Origin: a virus
Virus record (IMG/VR): IMGVR_UViG_3300049737_000163
Span: 1 to 28,458 of that record
DNA: 28,458 nucleotides
Direction: 5' to 3' (one strand)
Position numbers and translations under genes: made by a program. The notes under the pieces are model-generated. The model had not been told where the DNA came from. It did no database searches and worked only from the letters and a program-made list of their open reading frames with translations. Shown piece by piece: positions 512 through 27,007 of this stretch (position 1 is its first letter; the number at the start of each line of letters is the position of its first letter).

Positions 512-609
512 ACTTATTTGAAATACTAATATTATCTGTTCTAGCCTACTTTGTTGTAGGCAGTATTGTTGGATTTATATATGCTTATTACAAAGGCTTC
601 TTTGATTAA
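508..609 (+). CDS. 33-aa single-pass membrane peptide
   Basis: The ATG at 508 sits in an ATGA overlap with the previous stop and has GAGGAGGTGTCAGA before it, nearly the same start context as the gene at 190. The 33-residue product is almost wholly one hydrophobic helix (residues about 3-27) with a short YYKGFFD tail, so it should be a small inner-membrane peptide. Its stop (607-609) overlaps the stop of the convergent small terminase gene by 2 bases. Function unknown; small phage membrane peptides often affect host membrane proteins or lysis, but nothing here shows which. Confidence 0.6.
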   Translation: MNLFEILILSVLAYFVVGSIVGFIYAYYKGFFD

Positions 610-1181
610 TTCTTATCTTTTTTAGATACAGCTCCCGACTTGTTTTCAATAACATTTGCTCCCGACTTATTATCTAAAGCTTTAGTTCCTAGCAACTGTT
701 GTAACCTTCTTTCTACTTCGTCCCGACTCATCTGGTCAATCTTTCCGTGTAGAACTTCTCTCCTATCAACAATAAGTCCCCCGACCTTTAACAATAAACC
801 TTGTGCTTGAATAGCTGCGTTATAGGCCCCAGACCCCCAGGCATCATCTCTAAGTTTATATAAGTCTTCAACTGCCTTATCGTGTGTAAGCTCAAACTTT
901 TTCTTAGCTTCCGACATCAGTCTTTCATACTCACGTCTAACATGTGCATACTTATTACCTTCATGCATATATCTACCTATGACTATAGGATTTTTATATC
1001 CTGCTTTCTTGGCTGCTTCCGCCCAAGTAAGCTGTGGGTCGTTAGCTGCGTTCCAGACTAATAACCTTTGTCTTTTAGTTAAATGTTTTTCATCGTGATT
1101 GACATACTCAATAGGCATGTCATCTGTATTCTCTAATGTTTTTTCAACCTTAATACTTTTTCTTATCGTATGATTTCGCAT
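606..1181 (-). CDS. terS: terminase small subunit (DNA packaging)
   Basis: A 191-residue protein of the size and layout of phage small terminase subunits, which recognise the packaging start on phage DNA and load the large subunit. After a basic start, residues about 35-70 include TKRQRLLVWNAAND and LTWAEAAKKAGY, the helix-turn-helix typical of TerS. A charged, helical middle (HVRREYERLMSEAKKKF) would form the oligomerisation core, and the C-terminus is basic and low in structure. No large terminase gene follows; downstream on this strand are opposing genes, so the large subunit is probably outside the window. The repeat cluster at 1286-1587 just upstream could be its recognition site. Confidence rests on the HTH and overall pattern. 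Confidence 0.7.
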   Translation of the reverse strand: MRNHTIRKSIKVEKTLENTDDMPIEYVNHDEKHLTKRQRLLVWNAANDPQLTWAEAAKKAGYKNPIVIGRYMHEGNKYAHVRREYERLMSEAKKKFELTHDKAVEDLYKLRDDAWGSGAYNAAIQAQGLLLKVGGLIVDRREVLHGKIDQMSRDEVERRLQQLLGTKALDNKSGANVIENKSGAVSKKDKN

Positions 1182-1296
1182 TTAATAATCTTGCTCCTGG
1201 ATATTTCTTTATAAATTTTACTACATCTGGTGTTTCAAGCAAATTTACTACATATTCTGGTAATTTATCTCTTAATTCTTTTTTTAGTTTTGTCAT
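1150..1296 (-). CDS. small basic hypothetical protein, 48 aa
   Basis: ATG (complement of 1294-1296) to TAA (1150-1152) encodes 48 residues beginning MTKLKKELRDKLPEYV and containing TPDVVKFIKKYPGARLL, a plausible small helical basic protein. It overlaps the start of the small terminase gene by 32 bases in another frame. There is no clear Shine-Dalgarno before its start, and the start overlaps the first copy of the 10-bp repeat. It could be a real leader gene for terS or a chance frame; the amino acid composition favours real. Confidence 0.4.
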   Translation of the reverse strand: MTKLKKELRDKLPEYVVNLLETPDVVKFIKKYPGARLLNAKSYDKKKY

Positions 1297-1587
1297 GTTA
1301 ATTTTAGTTTTGTCAGACTTTTGTCATACATTCCCTGACAAAACTCTAAACCCTGTAACAGTAGGCTCTCTAGAGTAATATATATATATAAATAAGAGTA
1401 TATATATAGTTTTGTCATATATTCTTATACCTACCCTTACACATATCTCATACTGTTAGGAACATTTCCGACCCTTTTACCACTTAGACCAAAACCCTGA
1501 CAAAACTGACAAAACGCCAAAACCTTGCGCAGTAAGGCTTTCAAGCCAATAGTTTTGTCATTCAGGTTCATCATCTTTGACAAAACT
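1286..1587. repeat. iteron-like cluster: nine copies of AGTTTTGTCA
   Basis: The 10-mer AGTTTTGTCA or its complement TGACAAAACT occurs, with at most 1-2 changes, at 1286-1295, 1306-1315, 1317-1326, 1336-1345, 1408-1417, 1498-1507, 1507-1516, 1551-1560 and 1578-1587. Both orientations are present, and two copies (1498-1516) share a base. The copies flank an AT-only tract at about 1377-1395 and fill the longest non-coding stretch of the window (1297-1557). Such a cluster fits initiator-protein iterons at a replication origin, or a recognition site for the small terminase encoded next door. I cannot separate these two roles from sequence. Confidence 0.75.
1372..1409. other. AT-rich tract inside the repeat cluster (possible DNA unwinding element)
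   Basis: The tract is a run of alternating TA with two direct copies of AGAGTA followed by TA repeats (1372 and 1396 onward). It lies between the fourth and fifth copy of the 10-bp repeat. An AT tract flanked by iterons is the usual layout of a replication origin. An alternative is a promoter region: the complement contains TATACT at 1397-1402 but I see no good -35 for it. Confidence 0.45.
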
Positions 1588-1851
1588 ACCCGTAAATAGA
1601 ACATCTAGGTCCTTTTTTATACCAAAACAGTTATATAAAACCTCGTCAATAACTTCCGAACCTTCGTTAGGTGTTTCTGCGTAGCTCAATAACTCACATA
1701 CTCCGTAAGTAAATATGAGGCTTGCCGTTTCTTTGGGGGAAGCGCCCCTAGTAACAAAGTCTTGAAAAAAATTATCAAGTCTTTTTTTTGCTTCCAGGTG
1801 GGAGGGTTTGGGACGCTTTGATTCAAAATCTATAATCTTTAGGTGTGTCAT
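1558..1851 (-). CDS. hypothetical protein, 97 aa
   Basis: I place the start at the ATG at 1851 (MTHLKIIDFE) rather than the in-frame ATG at 1932, because the 27 extra residues are hydrophobic, Cys-containing and unlike the rest. The 97-residue protein is mixed alpha/beta with ASPKETASLIFTYGVCELL and an acidic C-terminus (VKDDEPE). Its last codons and stop overlap two copies of the TGACAAAACT repeat. No family recognised. The bases just upstream include TATACT (1858-1863 on the complement) so close to the ATG that a transcript from it would be nearly leaderless. Confidence 0.5.
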   Translation of the reverse strand: MTHLKIIDFESKRPKPSHLEAKKRLDNFFQDFVTRGASPKETASLIFTYGVCELLSYAETPNEGSEVIDEVLYNCFGIKKDLDVLFTGSFVKDDEPE

Positions 1852-6771: not shown

Positions 6772-7107
6772 ATGAGCGAAGTAAATAAAAACCAATGGAA
6801 AGTGAATTACTTATACAGGTTACAAGAAATTTGTAAAAAAGACATACAAGAGTTTTATGATAACAAATTAGAGCCTGAATTAAAGGAGAGAGAAGTGAAT
6901 AGAATATCTTTAAAAGATTATATTGCCTATATAGGCAATGCTGGTGCAGCAAAATTATTTGAGTGTACCGAAAATACTGCCAAGTCTTGGAGGTATGGCC
7001 GAAGACAGCCATCAATAAAACAGGCCAAAAAAATAATCAAAGCAGCCGACGGAAAGCTGGACTTTGAATCTATTTATGGGCCACTTGAAACTAATTTTGA
7101 AGATTAA
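6772..7107 (+). CDS. HTH transcriptional regulator, Cro/CI-like
   Basis: A 111-residue protein with a helix-turn-helix at about residues 62-92 (NAGAAKLFECTENTAKSW then YGRRQPSIKQAKKI), the pattern of Cro/CI-type regulators. The N-terminal half is helical and charged. It is the first gene after the divergent promoter/operator at 6706-6736 and is followed after 5 bases by the primase-helicase gene, so it probably controls its own operon and the divergent recombination genes. I see no Shine-Dalgarno before the ATG. No lysogeny genes are present here, so an early/late timing switch is more likely than a lysogenic repressor. Confidence 0.7.
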   Translation: MSEVNKNQWKVNYLYRLQEICKKDIQEFYDNKLEPELKEREVNRISLKDYIAYIGNAGAAKLFECTENTAKSWRYGRRQPSIKQAKKIIKAADGKLDFESIYGPLETNFED

Positions 7108-7112
7108 TACAA

Positions 7113-9233
7113 GTGTTCAACGTCAAAGCAACAGCAGAAGACTCTGCGTTGGATTTAGCACTTGCGTATGCAGAATCAGGTTTCAGCGTAGTACCGCTAC
7201 AACGCCATAACAAAGTTCCGCCCAAGGAACTAGGCAGTTGGGAAAGATTCAAAAGCGAGCAGCCAACAACAGAGGAAATAACTAGATGGTTTAAAGGCCG
7301 TGATGATTTAGTCGTAGCTTTAGTAACTGGTAAATTTTTGGTCGTAGATGCAGATACACCAGAAGCCGTCATATGGGCAGCAAATAATTTACCAGTTACC
7401 CCCTTAAAGGTAGCTACTGGCAAGGGTATGCACTACTACTATAACAATCCAGAAAATTTTACGACTTATGTAGCAAGAAGGGTAGCAGATTATGACCCCG
7501 ATAAGCTTATAGACATAAGAGGCGTTGGTGGTCTAATTATAGCCCCCTATAATATACATGCCACCGGCGTCATTTATGAGCCTCAGTTAATAGAGGACTG
7601 GGAGTTACATGATACAAACGATTTGCCAGACTTTACAAAGGACCATTGGGTTAAAGTAACTGGCGCAGATAAAATAAATGGTAAGCCTATATCAACACCA
7701 CTATCTCTTGAGTCTGTAAGTGAGGGAGGCAGAAATGATACTGCAGCAAGAATAGCTGGTTATTTAATAGCAAAAGGTTTAAATGTAGATTTTGCTAGAT
7801 TCTTTTTGCAGTCTTGGAATACAAAAAATAAACCTCCATTAGATGATACTGAAATAGATACGATAGTAAATTCTATAATGAAGACCCATGAAAGAAAAAA
7901 TCAAGCTGCTCCAACTTATATATCTAAAAACAAAACAGTATCTGAACCAAAAGAACTTTATAACCCTCCAGGAATATTAAAAGACATATATGAATATTCA
8001 GAAAAGATAGCTCAAATACGTCAACCAGCTTTAAGTATGCAATCCGCTCTTGGTCTTGGTTCTGTGGTTGCGGGAAGAATGTATAGGTCAGATATGAATA
8101 ATTATTCATCTTTGTATTTTATGTGTATTGCCAAATCGGGGCAGGGTAAAGAGAATACTAAGACAGTTGTTGAGTCTATTCTAGATAATGCTGGCCATAT
8201 AGACCTTATGGCTGGAGATGGTTATACATCAAGTGGTGCTGTATATAGTTTGCTACGTCATAAACCAACACATATTACTGTAATGGACGAGTTTGGCAAA
8301 AGATTAGAGAGTATAGCTAAGTCATCAAACTCCAACAAAGAAGACGCTCTGCAGGTTCTTATGGAGTCCTGGGGCCGTTGTCATGGAACTATTAGACCAG
8401 ATAACTACTCTCTTATGAATATGTCTAGCAAACAACAACAAGAAGCTATGGATAGGTCAACAATTAAGCCAGCAATAACTCTTATGGGTATGAGTGTTCC
8501 TAAAAATTTTTACGGCGCTTTGTCTACAGGCAGAATTGTAGATGGATTTTTAAATAGATTTATTGTCGTAGAATCTAAGTTACCTAGAGTGGTAGGTAAG
8601 ATGGTGCCATTTTTAGAACCGTCTGATGCAATATGTGAATGGGTAAGAAAGGTTAGAGAAACAAAGAATGAAATGGAGGAGCTTGCTAAAAATAATTCTG
8701 AATTAGATTTTAAACAAAGAGTTTTAAACTTTGATAAAGATAGTAAAGAGTTGCTTACTAAATTAGCCTACAAGTTAATAGAAGAACAGGACCAGCTAGA
8801 AAAAACAGGGTTGGAGGTTTTATTATCTAGAACCAGAGAGAAAGCTATGCGATTAGCTTTGATATGTGCCTTAGCTGACAATCCAAAAACAAATATTATT
8901 AGAGGAGATATAACTAAGTGGGCAATTGATTATGTTTATTACTATGACCAGTTGCTTGTAGATAATTGTGAAGACAAGGTGGCAGGCTCAGAAACAGAAA
9001 GCAAGATAAAACAAGTATTAAGTTTTATAAGGTCCCAAGGAGATATAGGTATAAGCAAGCGTGATATTGATAGAAGAGAAATATTTAGAAGTATGAAGTC
9101 ATACGAAGTAAAAGAAATTATAGAAAGATTGAAAAATTCTGGAGAAATACAAGAGAAAGATGTCAAAGTAAAAACAACTGGTAGACCTACCAAACGTATT
9201 GTTGCTATTGACCCCGAGTTTTTTGATGACTAA
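7113..9233 (+). CDS. primase-helicase: Prim-Pol, PriCT and DUF3987 domains
   Basis: A 706-residue replication protein with a GTG start 5 bases after the previous stop. N-terminal archaeo-eukaryotic-type Prim-Pol domain (about 10-165): VVDADTPEA gives the D79-x-D81 metal site, TGKGMHYYY gives His107, and DIRGVGGLIIAP gives the third acidic residue. A PriCT-like segment follows near 205-260 (GGRNDTAARIAGYL). The C-terminal half resembles the DUF3987 helicase-like part, with AKSGQGKEN as a Walker A in which the final S/T is E, and ITVMDEFGK as Walker B. A winged-helix-like end (ISKRDIDRREIFRSM) closes it. It would make primers and perhaps unwind DNA; the altered Walker A leaves helicase activity open. 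Confidence 0.8.
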   Translation: MFNVKATAEDSALDLALAYAESGFSVVPLQRHNKVPPKELGSWERFKSEQPTTEEITRWFKGRDDLVVALVTGKFLVVDADTPEAVIWAANNLPVTPLKVATGKGMHYYYNNPENFTTYVARRVADYDPDKLIDIRGVGGLIIAPYNIHATGVIYEPQLIEDWELHDTNDLPDFTKDHWVKVTGADKINGKPISTPLSLESVSEGGRNDTAARIAGYLIAKGLNVDFARFFLQSWNTKNKPPLDDTEIDTIVNSIMKTHERKNQAAPTYISKNKTVSEPKELYNPPGILKDIYEYSEKIAQIRQPALSMQSALGLGSVVAGRMYRSDMNNYSSLYFMCIAKSGQGKENTKTVVESILDNAGHIDLMAGDGYTSSGAVYSLLRHKPTHITVMDEFGKRLESIAKSSNSNKEDALQVLMESWGRCHGTIRPDNYSLMNMSSKQQQEAMDRSTIKPAITLMGMSVPKNFYGALSTGRIVDGFLNRFIVVESKLPRVVGKMVPFLEPSDAICEWVRKVRETKNEMEELAKNNSELDFKQRVLNFDKDSKELLTKLAYKLIEEQDQLEKTGLEVLLSRTREKAMRLALICALADNPKTNIIRGDITKWAIDYVYYYDQLLVDNCEDKVAGSETESKIKQVLSFIRSQGDIGISKRDIDRREIFRSMKSYEVKEIIERLKNSGEIQEKDVKVKTTGRPTKRIVAIDPEFFDD

Positions 9234-22054: not shown

Positions 22055-22266
22055 ATTAAAAACCTCGTTAAAACTGCAATACCTATAGCACCAATAAAAC
22101 CAAACACTCCAAAGGTAGCTGCTTTTATAGTTGAATTAATATAAGTTATTTCTTGTTTGATGTCAGCAAACTCATTAAAAGCAGTTTTCCAACGTTCATG
22201 CGATATTGTTTCTAGTTTTGTAAGTCTTTCTGCAACATCATTTACTGTCATTTTTTTATTATCCAT
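22051..22266 (-). CDS. small coiled-coil plus C-terminal membrane helix protein (XhlA-like)
   Basis: A 71-residue protein with a heptad-like N-terminal helix (VAERLTKLETISHERW; FADIKQEITYINSTI) and one C-terminal membrane helix near 49-70 (FGFIGAIGIAVLTRFL). This resembles XhlA-type haemolysin/holin helpers. It overlaps the holin start by 4 bases and the cyclase end by 8. A lysis role is inferred from neighbours and layout. Confidence 0.55.
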   Translation of the reverse strand: MDNKKMTVNDVAERLTKLETISHERWKTAFNEFADIKQEITYINSTIKAATFGVFGFIGAIGIAVLTRFLI

Positions 22267-24013
22267 TTTGTAATGTATATATTTTAATTGGTTTTTCTTT
22301 ACCTTTTACAAAAATACTATCAAGTTCTTTCAACAATACCTCGTTGCTAAAATTACTTGAACTGATAGTATCATAACCTATTACAATATCTTCTCCAACT
22401 TCCTTAGTTGAGCTTTCTAGTCTAGCTGCAAGGTTTACCGCATCCCCTATAGCCGTATAATCAAACCTATCTTCAGACCCACAGTTACCTAACAATGCAA
22501 AACCTGTGTTAATTCCCACGCCTATTTCAACATTAATATCTGCTTTCTTAATGTTTTCTTGAATATCTCTAGCACATAATACTGCGGCAGTTTCATGTCC
22601 TGGTAAGTCAATAGGGGCATTAAATACGGCCATCATAGCGTCGCCTATATATTTATCTACCATACCTCCATACTCTTTTACTGCATTAGCTTGTATTGTT
22701 AGAGCTTTGTTCATAATTTTAGTAACTTCTTCTGGCTCTAGTTTTTCAGACATAGCAGTAAAGCCTCTTACGTCAGTAAAAAGAAACGTGCAGTATCTAC
22801 GCTCACCACCAAGCACTAAAGAATCCGGGTTATCTTGTAATTTTTTAACTTGTCTTGGGTCAAGATAATGTTCAAATTGTTTTTTAATTTGCAATCTAAG
22901 TTTAAATTGTTCTCTAAATCTTAAATAAAAAGCTATTGCACTTGTAATAAATTGTGAAATTAATGTCCATGTAACATCAATAAGATAGCCACTTTGTATC
23001 AAAGAGTTACCGCCAAACCCTACACAACACATTAGAAAAATACCCATACTTACACCATAGGTAATACCTAAATAATGCAACACAAGCCACGACAGGCTTA
23101 CAAAAAATAAAAAAATAGCTAATTCTGCAGATAAACTCCAATCTGGAATAGTTGGTGAGTTTTGTATTAAAATTGATTCTGCTAATGCAGCTTGAATTTT
23201 ATGTGGTTCCAATAAACCGACAGGGGTTGCAATTTGTGGCATTACGCCATTTGCAGTAACACCTACAAAAACAAACTTACCATTTACATTCATTTCTTGT
23301 AAATTAGTTTCTTCTGTATTTACCCAACTAATCCATTTACGACCAAAACTATCTGTTTTTACTGGTGGCAAACCTCTAACAGCTATTTCTTGTATACCAT
23401 TTTCGTTTGTTGTAAGTATATATGTTGGTGTGTTTGTTAATGTTTTAAGAACTTGTGTACCGAATGAAGCTGACCAACCATTAGGGGTTTTTAATATTAG
23501 AGGAATCCGCCTTACTAATTGGTCAACTTCTGTTGGTGCTATCGCAACACCCTGTATAACTTTATCATAAGTAGAATAATTTTGTTTTATTCCTGTTGAT
23601 TGTAACCCACCAACATCCGGGCCTCTAATAACTGTACCTGTGGTTTTAGGATATACGCCTTTACCGTTTTCAAACGTAGCTATTACACTTGGAGCATAAC
23701 CTAACGAACTGGCAAATCTTGCATCTCCTCCCATTCTATCTGCTTGTGGAAAACTTATTACCCATCCGACACCTAACGCACCCTTGCCTAATATTTCTAG
23801 TTGTATATCTGCTAATCTTTGTCTAGGTAAAGGCCAGCCTCCCTCACGCTCTACATCTTCTTCTGTAATGTTTAGTATTACAAAATTTCCTGATGCCTCT
23901 GGTGTTTTAATAAAAGTATCAAAGGTTTTAAGTTTTAATATTTCTGTAGGCGTGCTTTGAAACAATAATGGTAAGCTTAATAATATAAGTATAGGTAATA
24001 ATAGTCTTTTCAT
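22259..24013 (-). CDS. CHASE2-domain class III adenylate/guanylate cyclase
   Basis: A 584-residue membrane sensor cyclase. Residues 1-19 are a signal/anchor helix; about 25-290 are a periplasmic CHASE2 domain (KTFDTFIKTP, ILNITEEDVE, GGWPLPRQRLADI); three membrane helices follow near 298-316, 320-338 and 345-365; the cytosolic cyclase domain is about 400-584. Catalytic residues are all present: metal-binding Asp414 (FTDVRGFT) and Asp458 (KYIGDAMMAVF), base-selecting Lys454 and Asp518 (FDYTAIGDAVN), transition-state Asn527 and Arg531 (NLAARLE). Lys plus Asp favours ATP, so cAMP. The gene begins right after the fecR-like stop. CHASE2 cyclases next to FecR genes are known in bacteria, so this pair was probably captured as a unit. 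Very unusual in a phage. Confidence 0.92.
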   Translation of the reverse strand: MKRLLLPILILLSLPLLFQSTPTEILKLKTFDTFIKTPEASGNFVILNITEEDVEREGGWPLPRQRLADIQLEILGKGALGVGWVISFPQADRMGGDARFASSLGYAPSVIATFENGKGVYPKTTGTVIRGPDVGGLQSTGIKQNYSTYDKVIQGVAIAPTEVDQLVRRIPLILKTPNGWSASFGTQVLKTLTNTPTYILTTNENGIQEIAVRGLPPVKTDSFGRKWISWVNTEETNLQEMNVNGKFVFVGVTANGVMPQIATPVGLLEPHKIQAALAESILIQNSPTIPDWSLSAELAIFLFFVSLSWLVLHYLGITYGVSMGIFLMCCVGFGGNSLIQSGYLIDVTWTLISQFITSAIAFYLRFREQFKLRLQIKKQFEHYLDPRQVKKLQDNPDSLVLGGERRYCTFLFTDVRGFTAMSEKLEPEEVTKIMNKALTIQANAVKEYGGMVDKYIGDAMMAVFNAPIDLPGHETAAVLCARDIQENIKKADINVEIGVGINTGFALLGNCGSEDRFDYTAIGDAVNLAARLESSTKEVGEDIVIGYDTISSSNFSNEVLLKELDSIFVKGKEKPIKIYTLQNG

Positions 24014-25126
24014 TTAATCACTTTGCCTTATAGTTATTACAGAATCTCCTCCGCCGTTAATTTTTACGATATTAGAAACTCCATCCTGTATGAGTATAAC
24101 TGTATAACCACTTGCTGTATTTAAATCTAGTCGTACAGATTCACTTACGTTTCTTCTCAAACTTATCGTTTGACCTGTAACAATAGTGGTTATTTGTGTA
24201 TTTGCATCCTGGCCAATTAATGTTCCTGTTATGTTTACCCCAGTATTTGAAACAAGCTGGTCCTCTTCTTTTTCAACAGCTAAAGCATCTAACACATCTA
24301 ATAAATCTTCTAAAAAATTTATATCAAGATAATTTATATCTAACTCGGTAAATTCTAAACTGCTATCTTCTAAAAAATCTTCTGCTAAATAATCAATATC
24401 AAGGTCGTTAAAATCTAATAAATTTACTGTTTTGGTGCTTGTAGTTTCATCTTGCGTAAATTGCTCTTCTTTTGGTGGTGTAACAATTAACATATTATCT
24501 ATAATATCTAGCGTCAAATCTAATATTACAGGTTTTGAAGGAGCATTTTCAAATACGTTTACAGTAGTAGCTTGATATGGTTTGTTAAGTAAAACACTAC
24601 CTGTAGCTGTAACTACTTCTATTTCTCCACTAGAAAACCCTAAAGCGTCTGGTAACAATATTATAAGGCTGCGCCCTAATTCGTCTACTGTAGCCGTAAA
24701 ATCAGTACCACGTATCGCTATATTGGCCGTGGGTGTTTTAAGAGTTATATTTTGTTTGTCTATACGGTTAAGATTGCCTGTGATAAACCTTGCTGTACCT
24801 AAGCCAAAGGTAAGAGCCATTTTAGATTTACTAGGGTCAGGGTCATAGATGTATTCATCTATCAGTAGTTGTGAGTGTTCGGTAAGTTTTACTGTAGATT
24901 CATCTAAAAAGGTGATAGCCATTCTACCATTAGTAGTAATAGCTTCATCATTGCTTTGAATAGCAAATTCTAAATTAGCATCGTAAGGCTTGTCTCTTAC
25001 TATTTGTGCTGAACCGTTTAGTTCAGATATGTCTCCAATATCAGCAGCTTGTGCTTGTACCTTGGTCGTTTTGAATGACGCAAACAGTACCACTATTACC
25101 GATAGATATAATTTTAAGCCAGTCAT
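24014..25126 (-). CDS. secreted FecR-domain protein with acidic repeats
   Basis: A 370-residue protein with a signal peptide (residues about 1-26, ending KVQAQA). The FecR domain (about 35-180) shows NDEAITTNGRMAITFLDEST and the hallmark LKTPTANIAIRGTDF near 130-144. Residues about 235-290 are an acidic segment with two related units (LDIDYLAEDFLEDSS; LDINYLDINFLEDLLD). The end has IQDGVSNIVKINGGGDS, which resembles a curlin repeat. Periplasmic or exported. The start lies 86 bases inside the curlin-like gene without a Shine-Dalgarno, so translation is probably coupled; no later start keeps the signal peptide. This type lacks a TonB/sigma partner here, so a scaffold or sensor role with the adjacent CHASE2 cyclase is more likely than iron signalling. 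Confidence 0.85.
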   Translation of the reverse strand: MTGLKLYLSVIVVLFASFKTTKVQAQAADIGDISELNGSAQIVRDKPYDANLEFAIQSNDEAITTNGRMAITFLDESTVKLTEHSQLLIDEYIYDPDPSKSKMALTFGLGTARFITGNLNRIDKQNITLKTPTANIAIRGTDFTATVDELGRSLIILLPDALGFSSGEIEVVTATGSVLLNKPYQATTVNVFENAPSKPVILDLTLDIIDNMLIVTPPKEEQFTQDETTSTKTVNLLDFNDLDIDYLAEDFLEDSSLEFTELDINYLDINFLEDLLDVLDALAVEKEEDQLVSNTGVNITGTLIGQDANTQITTIVTGQTISLRRNVSESVRLDLNTASGYTVILIQDGVSNIVKINGGGDSVITIRQSD

Positions 25127-25757
25127 TATCTAATGTGCTTGATTGTGTTATGTTAAAGGTTCTGCTGTTACCAGTTTGGTCTAAATAAAAATAACCTCCG
25201 GCATAACCAGACCCAGTAAAGTTTAAAGTATTACTGTCACCATCAACATCAACATAGTTAGTAGCACCATCATAATTAATATCAAAGTCAAAAGTGTTGC
25301 CATCACCCTGTATTATCCAATCTAAATCAAGAGTCGCAGCTAAAGCAGTTGTGCCGTGGTCTAATGTAAATGTGTTGGTACTACCTGTAACATCAACATT
25401 ATAGTCTGTATTGTCAATACCATAAGTATTTGTAGGGTCGCCTTGAATAGTAAAAGTATTACTATCGCCATCAAATTCAAAAAATCCTGTGACAGTATCG
25501 CCAAGAATATCTCCTAAAAACTTATTAGAATCGCCAATTTGGTTAATATCTAATGTCATAGTTGTACCATCTAAATCTAAAGCAGTTAACGTTCCTGCAA
25601 CAGAATTTAAACCTCCAATTATATTCCCAGAACCAAGTTGTTCTAAATCTATATTAGCTGTTGCCCCGCTTTGGTCCACATAAATTTCGCTATCAGCCGC
25701 GTATGTCGTCAATGCAGTCAGCATCACAATTAAGCTTATCAATTTTAATTGATTCAT
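25041..25757 (-). CDS. curlin-like secreted repeat protein (CsgA/CsgB-type candidate amyloid)
   Basis: The start is ATG 25757 with GGGAG 9 bases before; an in-frame ATG at 25784 lacks this. 238 residues: signal peptide about 1-20 (ending TTYA), then 25-30-residue beta repeats centred on G-D/S-x-N: GSGNII, GDSNKF, GDSNTF, GSTNTF, GDGNTF, GDSNTL, TGNSRTF, IGNSGTV, often with a nearby Q-x-G (VDQSG, LEQLG, INQIG, IIQGDGN, LDQTG). This is the periodicity of curlin repeats, though with more Asp and fewer Gln than CsgA. Two cysteines lie at the end. Directly follows csgG-like gene, overlapping it by 65 bases. The natural reading is the substrate of the CsgG channel. A different beta-solenoid surface protein is possible. 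Confidence 0.75.
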   Translation of the reverse strand: MNQLKLISLIVMLTALTTYAADSEIYVDQSGATANIDLEQLGSGNIIGGLNSVAGTLTALDLDGTTMTLDINQIGDSNKFLGDILGDTVTGFFEFDGDSNTFTIQGDPTNTYGIDNTDYNVDVTGSTNTFTLDHGTTALAATLDLDWIIQGDGNTFDFDINYDGATNYVDVDGDSNTLNFTGSGYAGGYFYLDQTGNSRTFNITQSSTLDNDWLKIISIGNSGTVCVIQNDQGTSTSC

Positions 25758-26562
25758 CTTTAATCTCCCAAAAACCTTTATCATAACCTATTTTTACTAT
25801 TTCCAAAACTGCTTGCTCAATAGCTTTTTGTAAAGCTAATGTAGCTGGTTCGTTTTCAGCATCTCCCATTTCTATTTCTACAAGTTCTGTGCCTACCTCT
25901 ATAAATTTAAAAACATCTTGTGATTGGCCATAACTATAGATTTGTTTACTTACTAAAACATCAATTAATACTTCTCCTGTAGCTATAGAAATCATACGTA
26001 AAGCAACTGTTATATTATCTATACGATATTGTTTGCTTGTACCTATTCCTAAATATCTAGCACCGATACCACCACTTTTTATATTTGTATCATAGCCAAT
26101 GACAGCACCTTCCATAAGCACACCTGCAAACAATAAAGGCATAATAGGTTTAGGTCCATCTTTTGCTTCATTTTGTTCTCTAGCAGAACGTATAAGTTGT
26201 CTTTCTTTAGTTAGGTTATCTAACCCAACTCTTTCAGCTACTCTAAAAAACTTACCATTTGCTGTATGTTTTAAACTTCTAATTAATAAATGACTGGGAG
26301 CTTGTGTAAGCGCTGTAGAAAATAAAGCAAACTCACTATTGCTTTTTCTTTGTCCTGTTTGGTCAGTAAAACTATTAGGATATACTGCTACAACTATAGG
26401 TATTTTAGGTTGTGATACATTTAATAATTCTTCAGATTGTATTTGTAAAATACTAGGTAAAATTTTACCTTTTTGTAAGTTAGTATCTACTGGAGATAAA
26501 CTACAACTAGAAGCTAAAATCACCAATAGGCAGCTGTATTTGAGTGACATTTCCGTTTTCAT
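25693..26562 (-). CDS. csgG: CsgG-like outer-membrane curli secretion channel
   Basis: A 289-residue lipoprotein (E. coli CsgG has 277). A signal sequence ends in ILASSC, a permissive lipobox, with Cys20 as the lipidated residue. Conserved CsgG phrases in order: VAVYPNSFTDQTGQ, LIRSLKHTANGKFFRVAER, GLDNLTKERQLIRSARE, GAVIGYDTNIKSGGIGARYLG, NITVALRMISIATGEVL, FKFIE, and NEPATLALQKAIEQAV near the end. CsgG forms the nonameric pore that exports curlin. In the constriction loop the Phe of LFSTAL aligns with E. coli Phe56, but Asn55 and Tyr51 are not kept. An alternative start is ATG 26550. It overlaps csgF by 56 bases. Very sure of family. Confidence 0.95.
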   Translation of the reverse strand: MKTEMSLKYSCLLVILASSCSLSPVDTNLQKGKILPSILQIQSEELLNVSQPKIPIVVAVYPNSFTDQTGQRKSNSEFALFSTALTQAPSHLLIRSLKHTANGKFFRVAERVGLDNLTKERQLIRSAREQNEAKDGPKPIMPLLFAGVLMEGAVIGYDTNIKSGGIGARYLGIGTSKQYRIDNITVALRMISIATGEVLIDVLVSKQIYSYGQSQDVFKFIEVGTELVEIEMGDAENEPATLALQKAIEQAVLEIVKIGYDKGFWEIKDESIKIDKLNCDADCIDDIRG

Positions 26563-27007
26563 CCGTAATAATTAGAGTGATAACGCCATCTTCAATACTA
26601 TATTGAATAGTGTTTCCCTCAAGTGTTAAAGTTCCTTCTGTGCTTGGTGTCTCCCCAAATAAATTTTCTACAAGCTGTCTTGATAGTTGTGCGTATATTC
26701 TTGATTCTAAATTTCTTATAAACCTTGCTAGTGTTGTGTTTTCTTTATCTCTTTCTAGCTGTTCTTGAATAGCTTTTATTTCTTCTTTAATACTCATTTT
26801 TCTATTAAACTCTTGGTTTTCAATAGTTAAATAATGAGAAGAGGTATTAATACCACTAAAAGATGGGTTTTTAAATTTATGAGTTATAGTATCTGCTTTT
26901 AAATTTACAGCAATAATTCCAAAAAATAATACAAAACCTATAAAAACTATAGTTATTGTAAGTCTGTATTTTTCTAATTCTTCTTTATTAATCTTTTCTT
27001 TGGTCAT
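26507..27007 (-). CDS. csgF: CsgF-like curli assembly factor
   Basis: A 166-residue protein (E. coli CsgF has 138). A 15-residue charged start and a long hydrophobic segment (about 16-37) lead to a likely cleavage before DTITHKFKNPSFSG, matching E. coli GTMTFQFRNPNFGG, the part that inserts in the CsgG pore. A charged helical middle (EEIKAIQEQLERDKE), longer than in E. coli, is followed by the helix LESRIYAQLSRQLVENLFG, and the C-terminal strands IQYSIEDGVITLIITDENG match the CsgF beta domain (YIVDIANRDGQLQLNVTDR). CsgF caps CsgG and couples secretion to nucleation. Overlaps the upstream gene by 20 bases and csgG by 56. The hydrophobic segment is long enough to be an uncleaved anchor. Confidence 0.9.
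   Translation of the reverse strand: MTKEKINKEELEKYRLTITIVFIGFVLFFGIIAVNLKADTITHKFKNPSFSGINTSSHYLTIENQEFNRKMSIKEEIKAIQEQLERDKENTTLARFIRNLESRIYAQLSRQLVENLFGETPSTEGTLTLEGNTIQYSIEDGVITLIITDENGNVTQIQLPIGDFSF

Follow-up and report, generated by a model that had tools for sequence, protein, structure and literature searches.

A conserved repeat cluster inherited with the small terminase gene in SAR11-type marine phages, a probable pac-like site

In a marine phage of SAR11 type, a cluster of short repeats lies upstream of terS, the gene for the small terminase. The cluster is a conserved cis element, and the type of repeat goes with a cassette made of terS and a small gene, p97, rather than with the genes for replication. 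A preliminary description of this DNA had offered two candidates for the cluster, a replication origin and a terminase recognition site. Comparison with relatives points to the second, of the pac kind, and makes the first less probable. As dozens of relatives share both the repeated word and its spacing, and as these travel with the terminase and not with replication genes, packaging recognition is the most likely role, and we consider that the cluster is probably a pac-like site for the adjacent TerS. As far as we are aware, few phages have a known pac site, and such sites, being short and poorly conserved, are rarely recognisable from sequence. Here metagenomic data would suffice to reveal a packaging signal, one that dozens of contigs share and that natural swaps separate from the replication genes. 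This offers a route to the packaging sites of phages not yet in culture, and a system for testing how a helix-turn-helix (HTH) terminase reads repeated words. No description of such an array was found in the literature searched.

Nine sites around an A/T tract

The DNA analysed, called the window in what follows, is an entire IMG/VR record of 28,458 bp, classed as linear. Its cluster holds nine near-identical sites in both orientations within 302 bp, as had been noticed at the outset: seven are exact copies of AGTTTTGTCA and two have a single mismatch, near the 5′ end in both (Table 1). A motif scan of the cluster shows that the exact 8-bp core TTTTGTCA is common to all nine, mostly with AG directly before it. 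When one mismatch is allowed, the record contains 12 matches where 4.2 are expected (at most 9 in 100 shuffles), and nine of these 12 fall inside the cluster. The densest 8-mer reaches nine copies per 302 bp, against three to five in 60 order-3 Markov genomes. A check proposed with the preliminary description shows that the 10-mer is not common genome-wide: exact AGTTTTGTCA is absent from the record outside the cluster.

Read on the minus strand, the order is p97, sites, A/T tract, sites, a 48-aa ORF and terS. The tract is present and flanked by sites, as described, but it is made of two AT-only runs with GAG between them. Likewise, the p97 gene does end within the cluster, one site lying across its stop codon and another inside it, while the idea that the region is the longest non-coding stretch has to be corrected, since these two sites and the one at the start of the 48-aa ORF leave it not wholly non-coding. 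A search of positions 900-2500 against Rfam gave no RNA family match.

Table 1. Position, strand and basis of the features discussed, in window coordinates
Feature	Position	Strand	Basis
TerS (small terminase), proposed site binder	606..1181	-	weak PHROG match, homology to annotated TerS
Conserved 48-aa ORF between cluster and terS, overlapping terS start	1150..1296	-	conservation
Iteron cluster, nine TTTTGTCA/TGACAAAA sites; proposed pac-like TerS recognition region	1286..1587	.	motif scan and relatives
Site, exact AGTTTTGTCA; at start codon of 48-aa ORF (ATGACAAAACTA on - strand)	1286..1295	+	
Site, exact AGTTTTGTCA	1306..1315	+	
Site ACTTTTGTCA; one mismatch, outside 8-bp core	1317..1326	+	
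Site, exact AGTTTTGTCA	1336..1345	-	
A/T tract; AT-only runs 1376-1395 and 1399-1408, GAG between	1376..1408	.	
Site, exact AGTTTTGTCA; at A/T tract edge; place shifts by about one helical turn among relatives	1408..1417	+	
Site, exact AGTTTTGTCA; first member of 9-bp tandem pair	1498..1507	-	
Site CGTTTTGTCA; one mismatch outside core; second member of 9-bp tandem pair	1507..1516	-	
Site, exact AGTTTTGTCA; across stop codon of 97-aa gene	1551..1560	+	
Site, exact AGTTTTGTCA; within 97-aa gene; third codon positions invariant, 9 relatives	1578..1587	-	
p97, conserved 97-aa helical protein, cassette part	1558..1851	-	no known family or fold match
Small 111-aa HTH protein (Cro-like, weak), adjoins primase; other candidate initiator	6772..7107	+	profile matches
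PrimPol/DUF3987 primase-helicase, candidate initiator if the cluster is an origin	7113..9233	+	profile matches

The identity of the adjacent gene as terS, already proposed, is supported indirectly, by a weak PHROG match to small terminases and by homology to the annotated TerS of the phages HTVC023P and HTVC027P. The window's own protein has no Pfam match. Members of its family match Terminase_2 (PF03592) just under or near the cut-off, 18 of the 38 aligned relatives doing so with a best E value of 5e-6 and, for the scores shown, 23.5-25.7 bits against a cut-off of 26.1. A profile search with TerS returned only a weak match to a Pam5 small terminase (E 0.014). Helices are predicted at residues 36-47, 53-59, 65-71, 79-117 and 120-133, a placement that would resemble an HTH followed by long helices in a model of low overall confidence (pLDDT 64, with 77-91 in most blocks of residues 31-130); compared with the PDB, this model has no significant fold match, to a TerS or to any other structure. 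The small ORF opens at an iteron and runs across the terS start codon; it matches no family, and in relatives it is 43-57 aa long. As for p97, it stands upstream of the iterons in both of the TerS lineages considered below, and the idea that it is a known DNA-binding protein was dropped, as it matches neither a family nor a fold.

Conservation of the array and its inheritance with terS

Relatives of TerS number 234 in viral contigs, 80 of which were fetched for comparison. In every one with enough upstream sequence (about 70), seven to ten cores lie at about -520 to -114 of terS, and cores are few elsewhere in these contigs. About 105 bp separate the window's cluster from the terS start, and this location is constant in the same number of relatives, about 70. 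In two long relatives, of 52 and 45 kb, it is the densest 8-mer cluster of the whole record, and outside it only isolated single copies are found. The order, orientation and spacing of the sites are nearly fixed. In terS orientation the commonest array reads >24<47>9>78<84>17<11<20<, and the central site is separated from its left neighbour by 88 or 78 bp and from its right one by 74 or 84 bp, the sum of the two distances being held at 162 in several groups, which amounts to a shift of about one helical turn. When the window is aligned with six distant relatives, identity reaches 99.1% at site columns and 48.5% between sites, while shifted masks in the same alignment give at most 82%. Constraint extends into coding sequence: none of the three third codon positions under the site in p97 varies, against a gene average of 0.54 mismatch.

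Core count shows a strong rank correlation with the identity of TerS and another with that of PrimPol, because the genes for packaging and replication usually travel together. The normal partner of a second PrimPol lineage (about 58% identity to the window's protein) is a second TerS lineage (about 50%), which has zero to three TTTTGTCA cores and a short TTGTCA array in their place. Co-occurrence was tabulated in 44 rows that have both TerS and PrimPol, a few contigs occurring twice. With a window-type TerS (72-100% identity), seven to nine cores are present in 31 of 31 rows, whether the PrimPol is 59% or 99% identical, and with the TerS of about 50% identity there are zero to three cores in all 13 rows. 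In L317, L324 and their relatives, which belong to the second TerS lineage, a strongly conserved TTGACT-N17-TATCCT promoter-like block followed by ACTTTAGGGTAAAGTGGGGG lies about 30-120 bp upstream of terS.

It is the recombinants that separate linkage to TerS from linkage to PrimPol, and they stand for one event, or a few. Three contigs from two metagenomes (L113, L116 and L023) carry window-type p97 and iterons, along with a window-type TerS in L113 and L023, and in L113 and L116 this cassette is joined to the replication module of the second lineage. L116 is 99.2% identical to L299 across the replication module and again 99.2% identical to L020 across the cassette side; the TerS of L299 is only 49% identical, and that contig has a single TTTTGTCA core and lacks the array. 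Since L023, which comes from another metagenome, matches L113 on either side of the junction, a chimeric assembly is argued against. The array is co-inherited with terS. A cis site and terS being physically linked, p97 or the small ORF could nevertheless be its partner, and as the TerS lineage of about 50% identity keeps a reduced TTGTCA array, the change there is one of degree.

Replication origin, operator and cos site

Repeats beside an A/T-rich tract are the architecture of phage and plasmid origins, as in SPP1 oriL and oriR, where gp38 repeats accompany an AT-rich unwinding element (PMC6316719), and the cluster has both components. As an origin, it would have its iterons bound by the PrimPol/DUF3987 helicase or by the small HTH protein, which would melt the A/T tract. 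Three genomes do have clusters of TGACAAAA immediately downstream of primase genes, which are a PrimPol in L114, a PrimPol-D5 helicase pair in L170 and a Toprim/AAA primase-helicase in L100; these stretches were selected by the motif itself and come from unrelated phages, so that they speak for the possibility of such arrays near primases, not for kinship. No TerS of the window's family was found in the stretches searched, and the L114 PrimPol, used as a probe for further primase-linked clusters, retrieved only L114 itself. In another case, L165/L130, the cluster adjoins an 805-aa gene and an integrase-like gene.

We find an origin unlikely, on grounds of place and of descent. The cluster is 5 kb from PrimPol and abuts terS. 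Unlike an iteron origin, which would be inherited with its initiator gene, it goes with terS: in the recombinants it stays although PrimPol and the HTH gene have been swapped, and a replication module nearly identical to theirs is found without it. In the 24-41 kb covered of each isolate with a related PrimPol (Loktanella pCB2051-A, Pseudoalteromonas H40/1 and C7, Roseobacter CRP-902 and two Vibrio phages), no TTTTGTCA cluster is present. The GC skew, a check proposed with the preliminary description, gives an origin no support. It tracks gene direction only, as it does in both long relatives, where its strand-corrected minima disagree, and it speaks neither for nor against an interpretation.

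Still less probable, though worth stating, is an array of operators at which p97, TerS or another phage regulator would control the operon of p97, the small ORF and terS. Sites lie beside and across the starts and ends of genes, p97 accompanies the cluster, and in the TerS lineage of about 50% identity the promoter-like block stands between the TTGTCA sites and terS. Yet nine bidirectional sites over 302 bp are more than operators usually have, the cluster yielded no sigma-70-like promoter, and p97, short and helical, matches no DNA-binding family or fold.

In its position upstream of terS the cluster resembles the cosB of phage lambda, and 9 of 68 contig starts fall at most 300 bp upstream of terS, a local peak equalled by one other bin. 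A cos-type site with fixed physical ends, in which cosB-like iterons would stand beside a cosN, is very improbable all the same: 70 of the 80 relatives' contigs run through the cluster, so that unique ends of the lambda type are not supported there (an indirect, assembly-based observation), the 52-kb relative overlaps itself at its ends (1,383 bp at 87%) far from the cluster, and genomes of the HTVC023P type were circularised through terminal overlaps (PMC9599517).

Packaging, and the arrays of other phages

We return to the pac-like site, for which the position next to the small-terminase gene is the one expected. TerS, a predicted HTH protein presumed to form a ring as it does in other phages, would bind several iterons at once, the A/T tract would let the DNA bend, and TerL would be recruited, cut nearby and start the headful packaging of concatemers; these three steps of binding, bending and cutting we infer. 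Most of the relatives' contigs have no fixed end at the cluster, and genomes circularise, as seen for the 52-kb relative and for phages of the HTVC023P type.

Among known systems, the pac site of P1, with its TGATC-containing hexamers and its PacA/PacB terminase, has seven hexamers either side of the cut and an IHF site, and is comparable to the cluster in its short repeats, their two groups, a bendable middle and a place at the small-terminase gene (PMC10028697). It differs in that the hexamers hold a Dam site and that the whole, of 161 bp, is inside pacA, whereas the cluster lies upstream of terS, extends over about 300 bp and has words of 8-10 bp, in either orientation, that contain no GATC. 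In the headful-packaging phages SPP1 and SF6, pac (pacL-pacC-pacR, with gp1) also contains repeats and takes in the start region of the small-terminase gene (PMC6316719, PMC4737164), and that of SPP1 overlaps the promoter and start of the gene (PMC6316719). The direct repeats of SPP1 form three sets, and it is doubted that they serve TerS binding; the cluster has a single, strongly conserved repeat type, present in 7-10 copies. The DNA-binding domain of SF6 TerS discriminates little in favour of the pac repeats of SPP1 (PMC4737164), and repeats at a pac site therefore need not be TerS sites.

Closer at hand is the Pelagibacter phage HTVC023P. Its TerS is 33% identical to that of the window (about 30% for HTVC023P and its relatives taken together), its TerL is 59% identical to that of the 52-kb relative, and its replication set, with primase, helicase and PolA, is different. 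No TTTTGTCA cluster was found in the 24 kb around its terS. Directly upstream of its terS, ACTAGGAAA repeats of either orientation surround a poly-A/T tract, in an array kept in most of the relatives examined. In the alignment of this type, identity is 81.5% at site columns and 66.1% between them, both values being lowered by one row (L248) cut at a wrong coordinate. Homologous terminases and conserved bidirectional short repeats around an A/T tract are thus common to the two groups, while the repeat, ACTAGGAAA and not AGTTTTGTCA, and the replication genes set them apart; different TerS lineages appear to keep different iterons in the same place. The presumed recognition-helix segment also differs among three TerS lineages in the alignment (PIVVGRYM, PRQMANKLM and GPTEIASRLT). 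It is plausible, if somewhat short of likely, that SAR11-type phages use a lineage-specific packaging code, in which each TerS would have its own word of 8-10 bp (AGTTTTGTCA, the reduced TTGTCA or ACTAGGAAA), repeated in both orientations around an A/T tract, and the p97-iteron-terS cassette would be exchanged as a unit between phages that differ in replication module, thereby determining whose DNA is packaged during co-infection.

Not all of the superfamily has the feature, since HTVC027P and DSL-LC04, which have related TerS and TerL, lack an obvious array in the 600 bp or so that precede terS. Farther along, still upstream of terS, HTVC027P (L084, 10025-11272) has two CAAGC-type arrays, separated by about 1 kb and built of 7/14-bp repeats. 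In the Planktothrix cyanophage Pag-Yong1, whose TerL is 42% identical, about nine TGTCATAC repeats in two groups (L292, 18100-18460) come after a TerS-like gene and before terL. This placement fits packaging, and the repeats are a possible pac site of the cyanophage; the TerS-like gene has no profile match to a terminase, and its assignment is a reading of the sequence. Tandem arrays of TGACAAAA with a period of 11-12, in an unrelated phage group, lie near TerS and TerL genes in L117 (6898-6975 and 9933-9998, in opposite orientations and bracketing the TerS-TerL region) and in L136 (7016-7058). As unrelated tandem arrays, they were not counted as support.

Elsewhere in the window, positions 22259-27007 of the minus strand hold a curli (type VIII secretion) set with CsgF, CsgG, FecR and a CHASE2 adenylate cyclase, which is already known, the same set having been reported in HTVC023P-type pelagiphages (PMC9599517).
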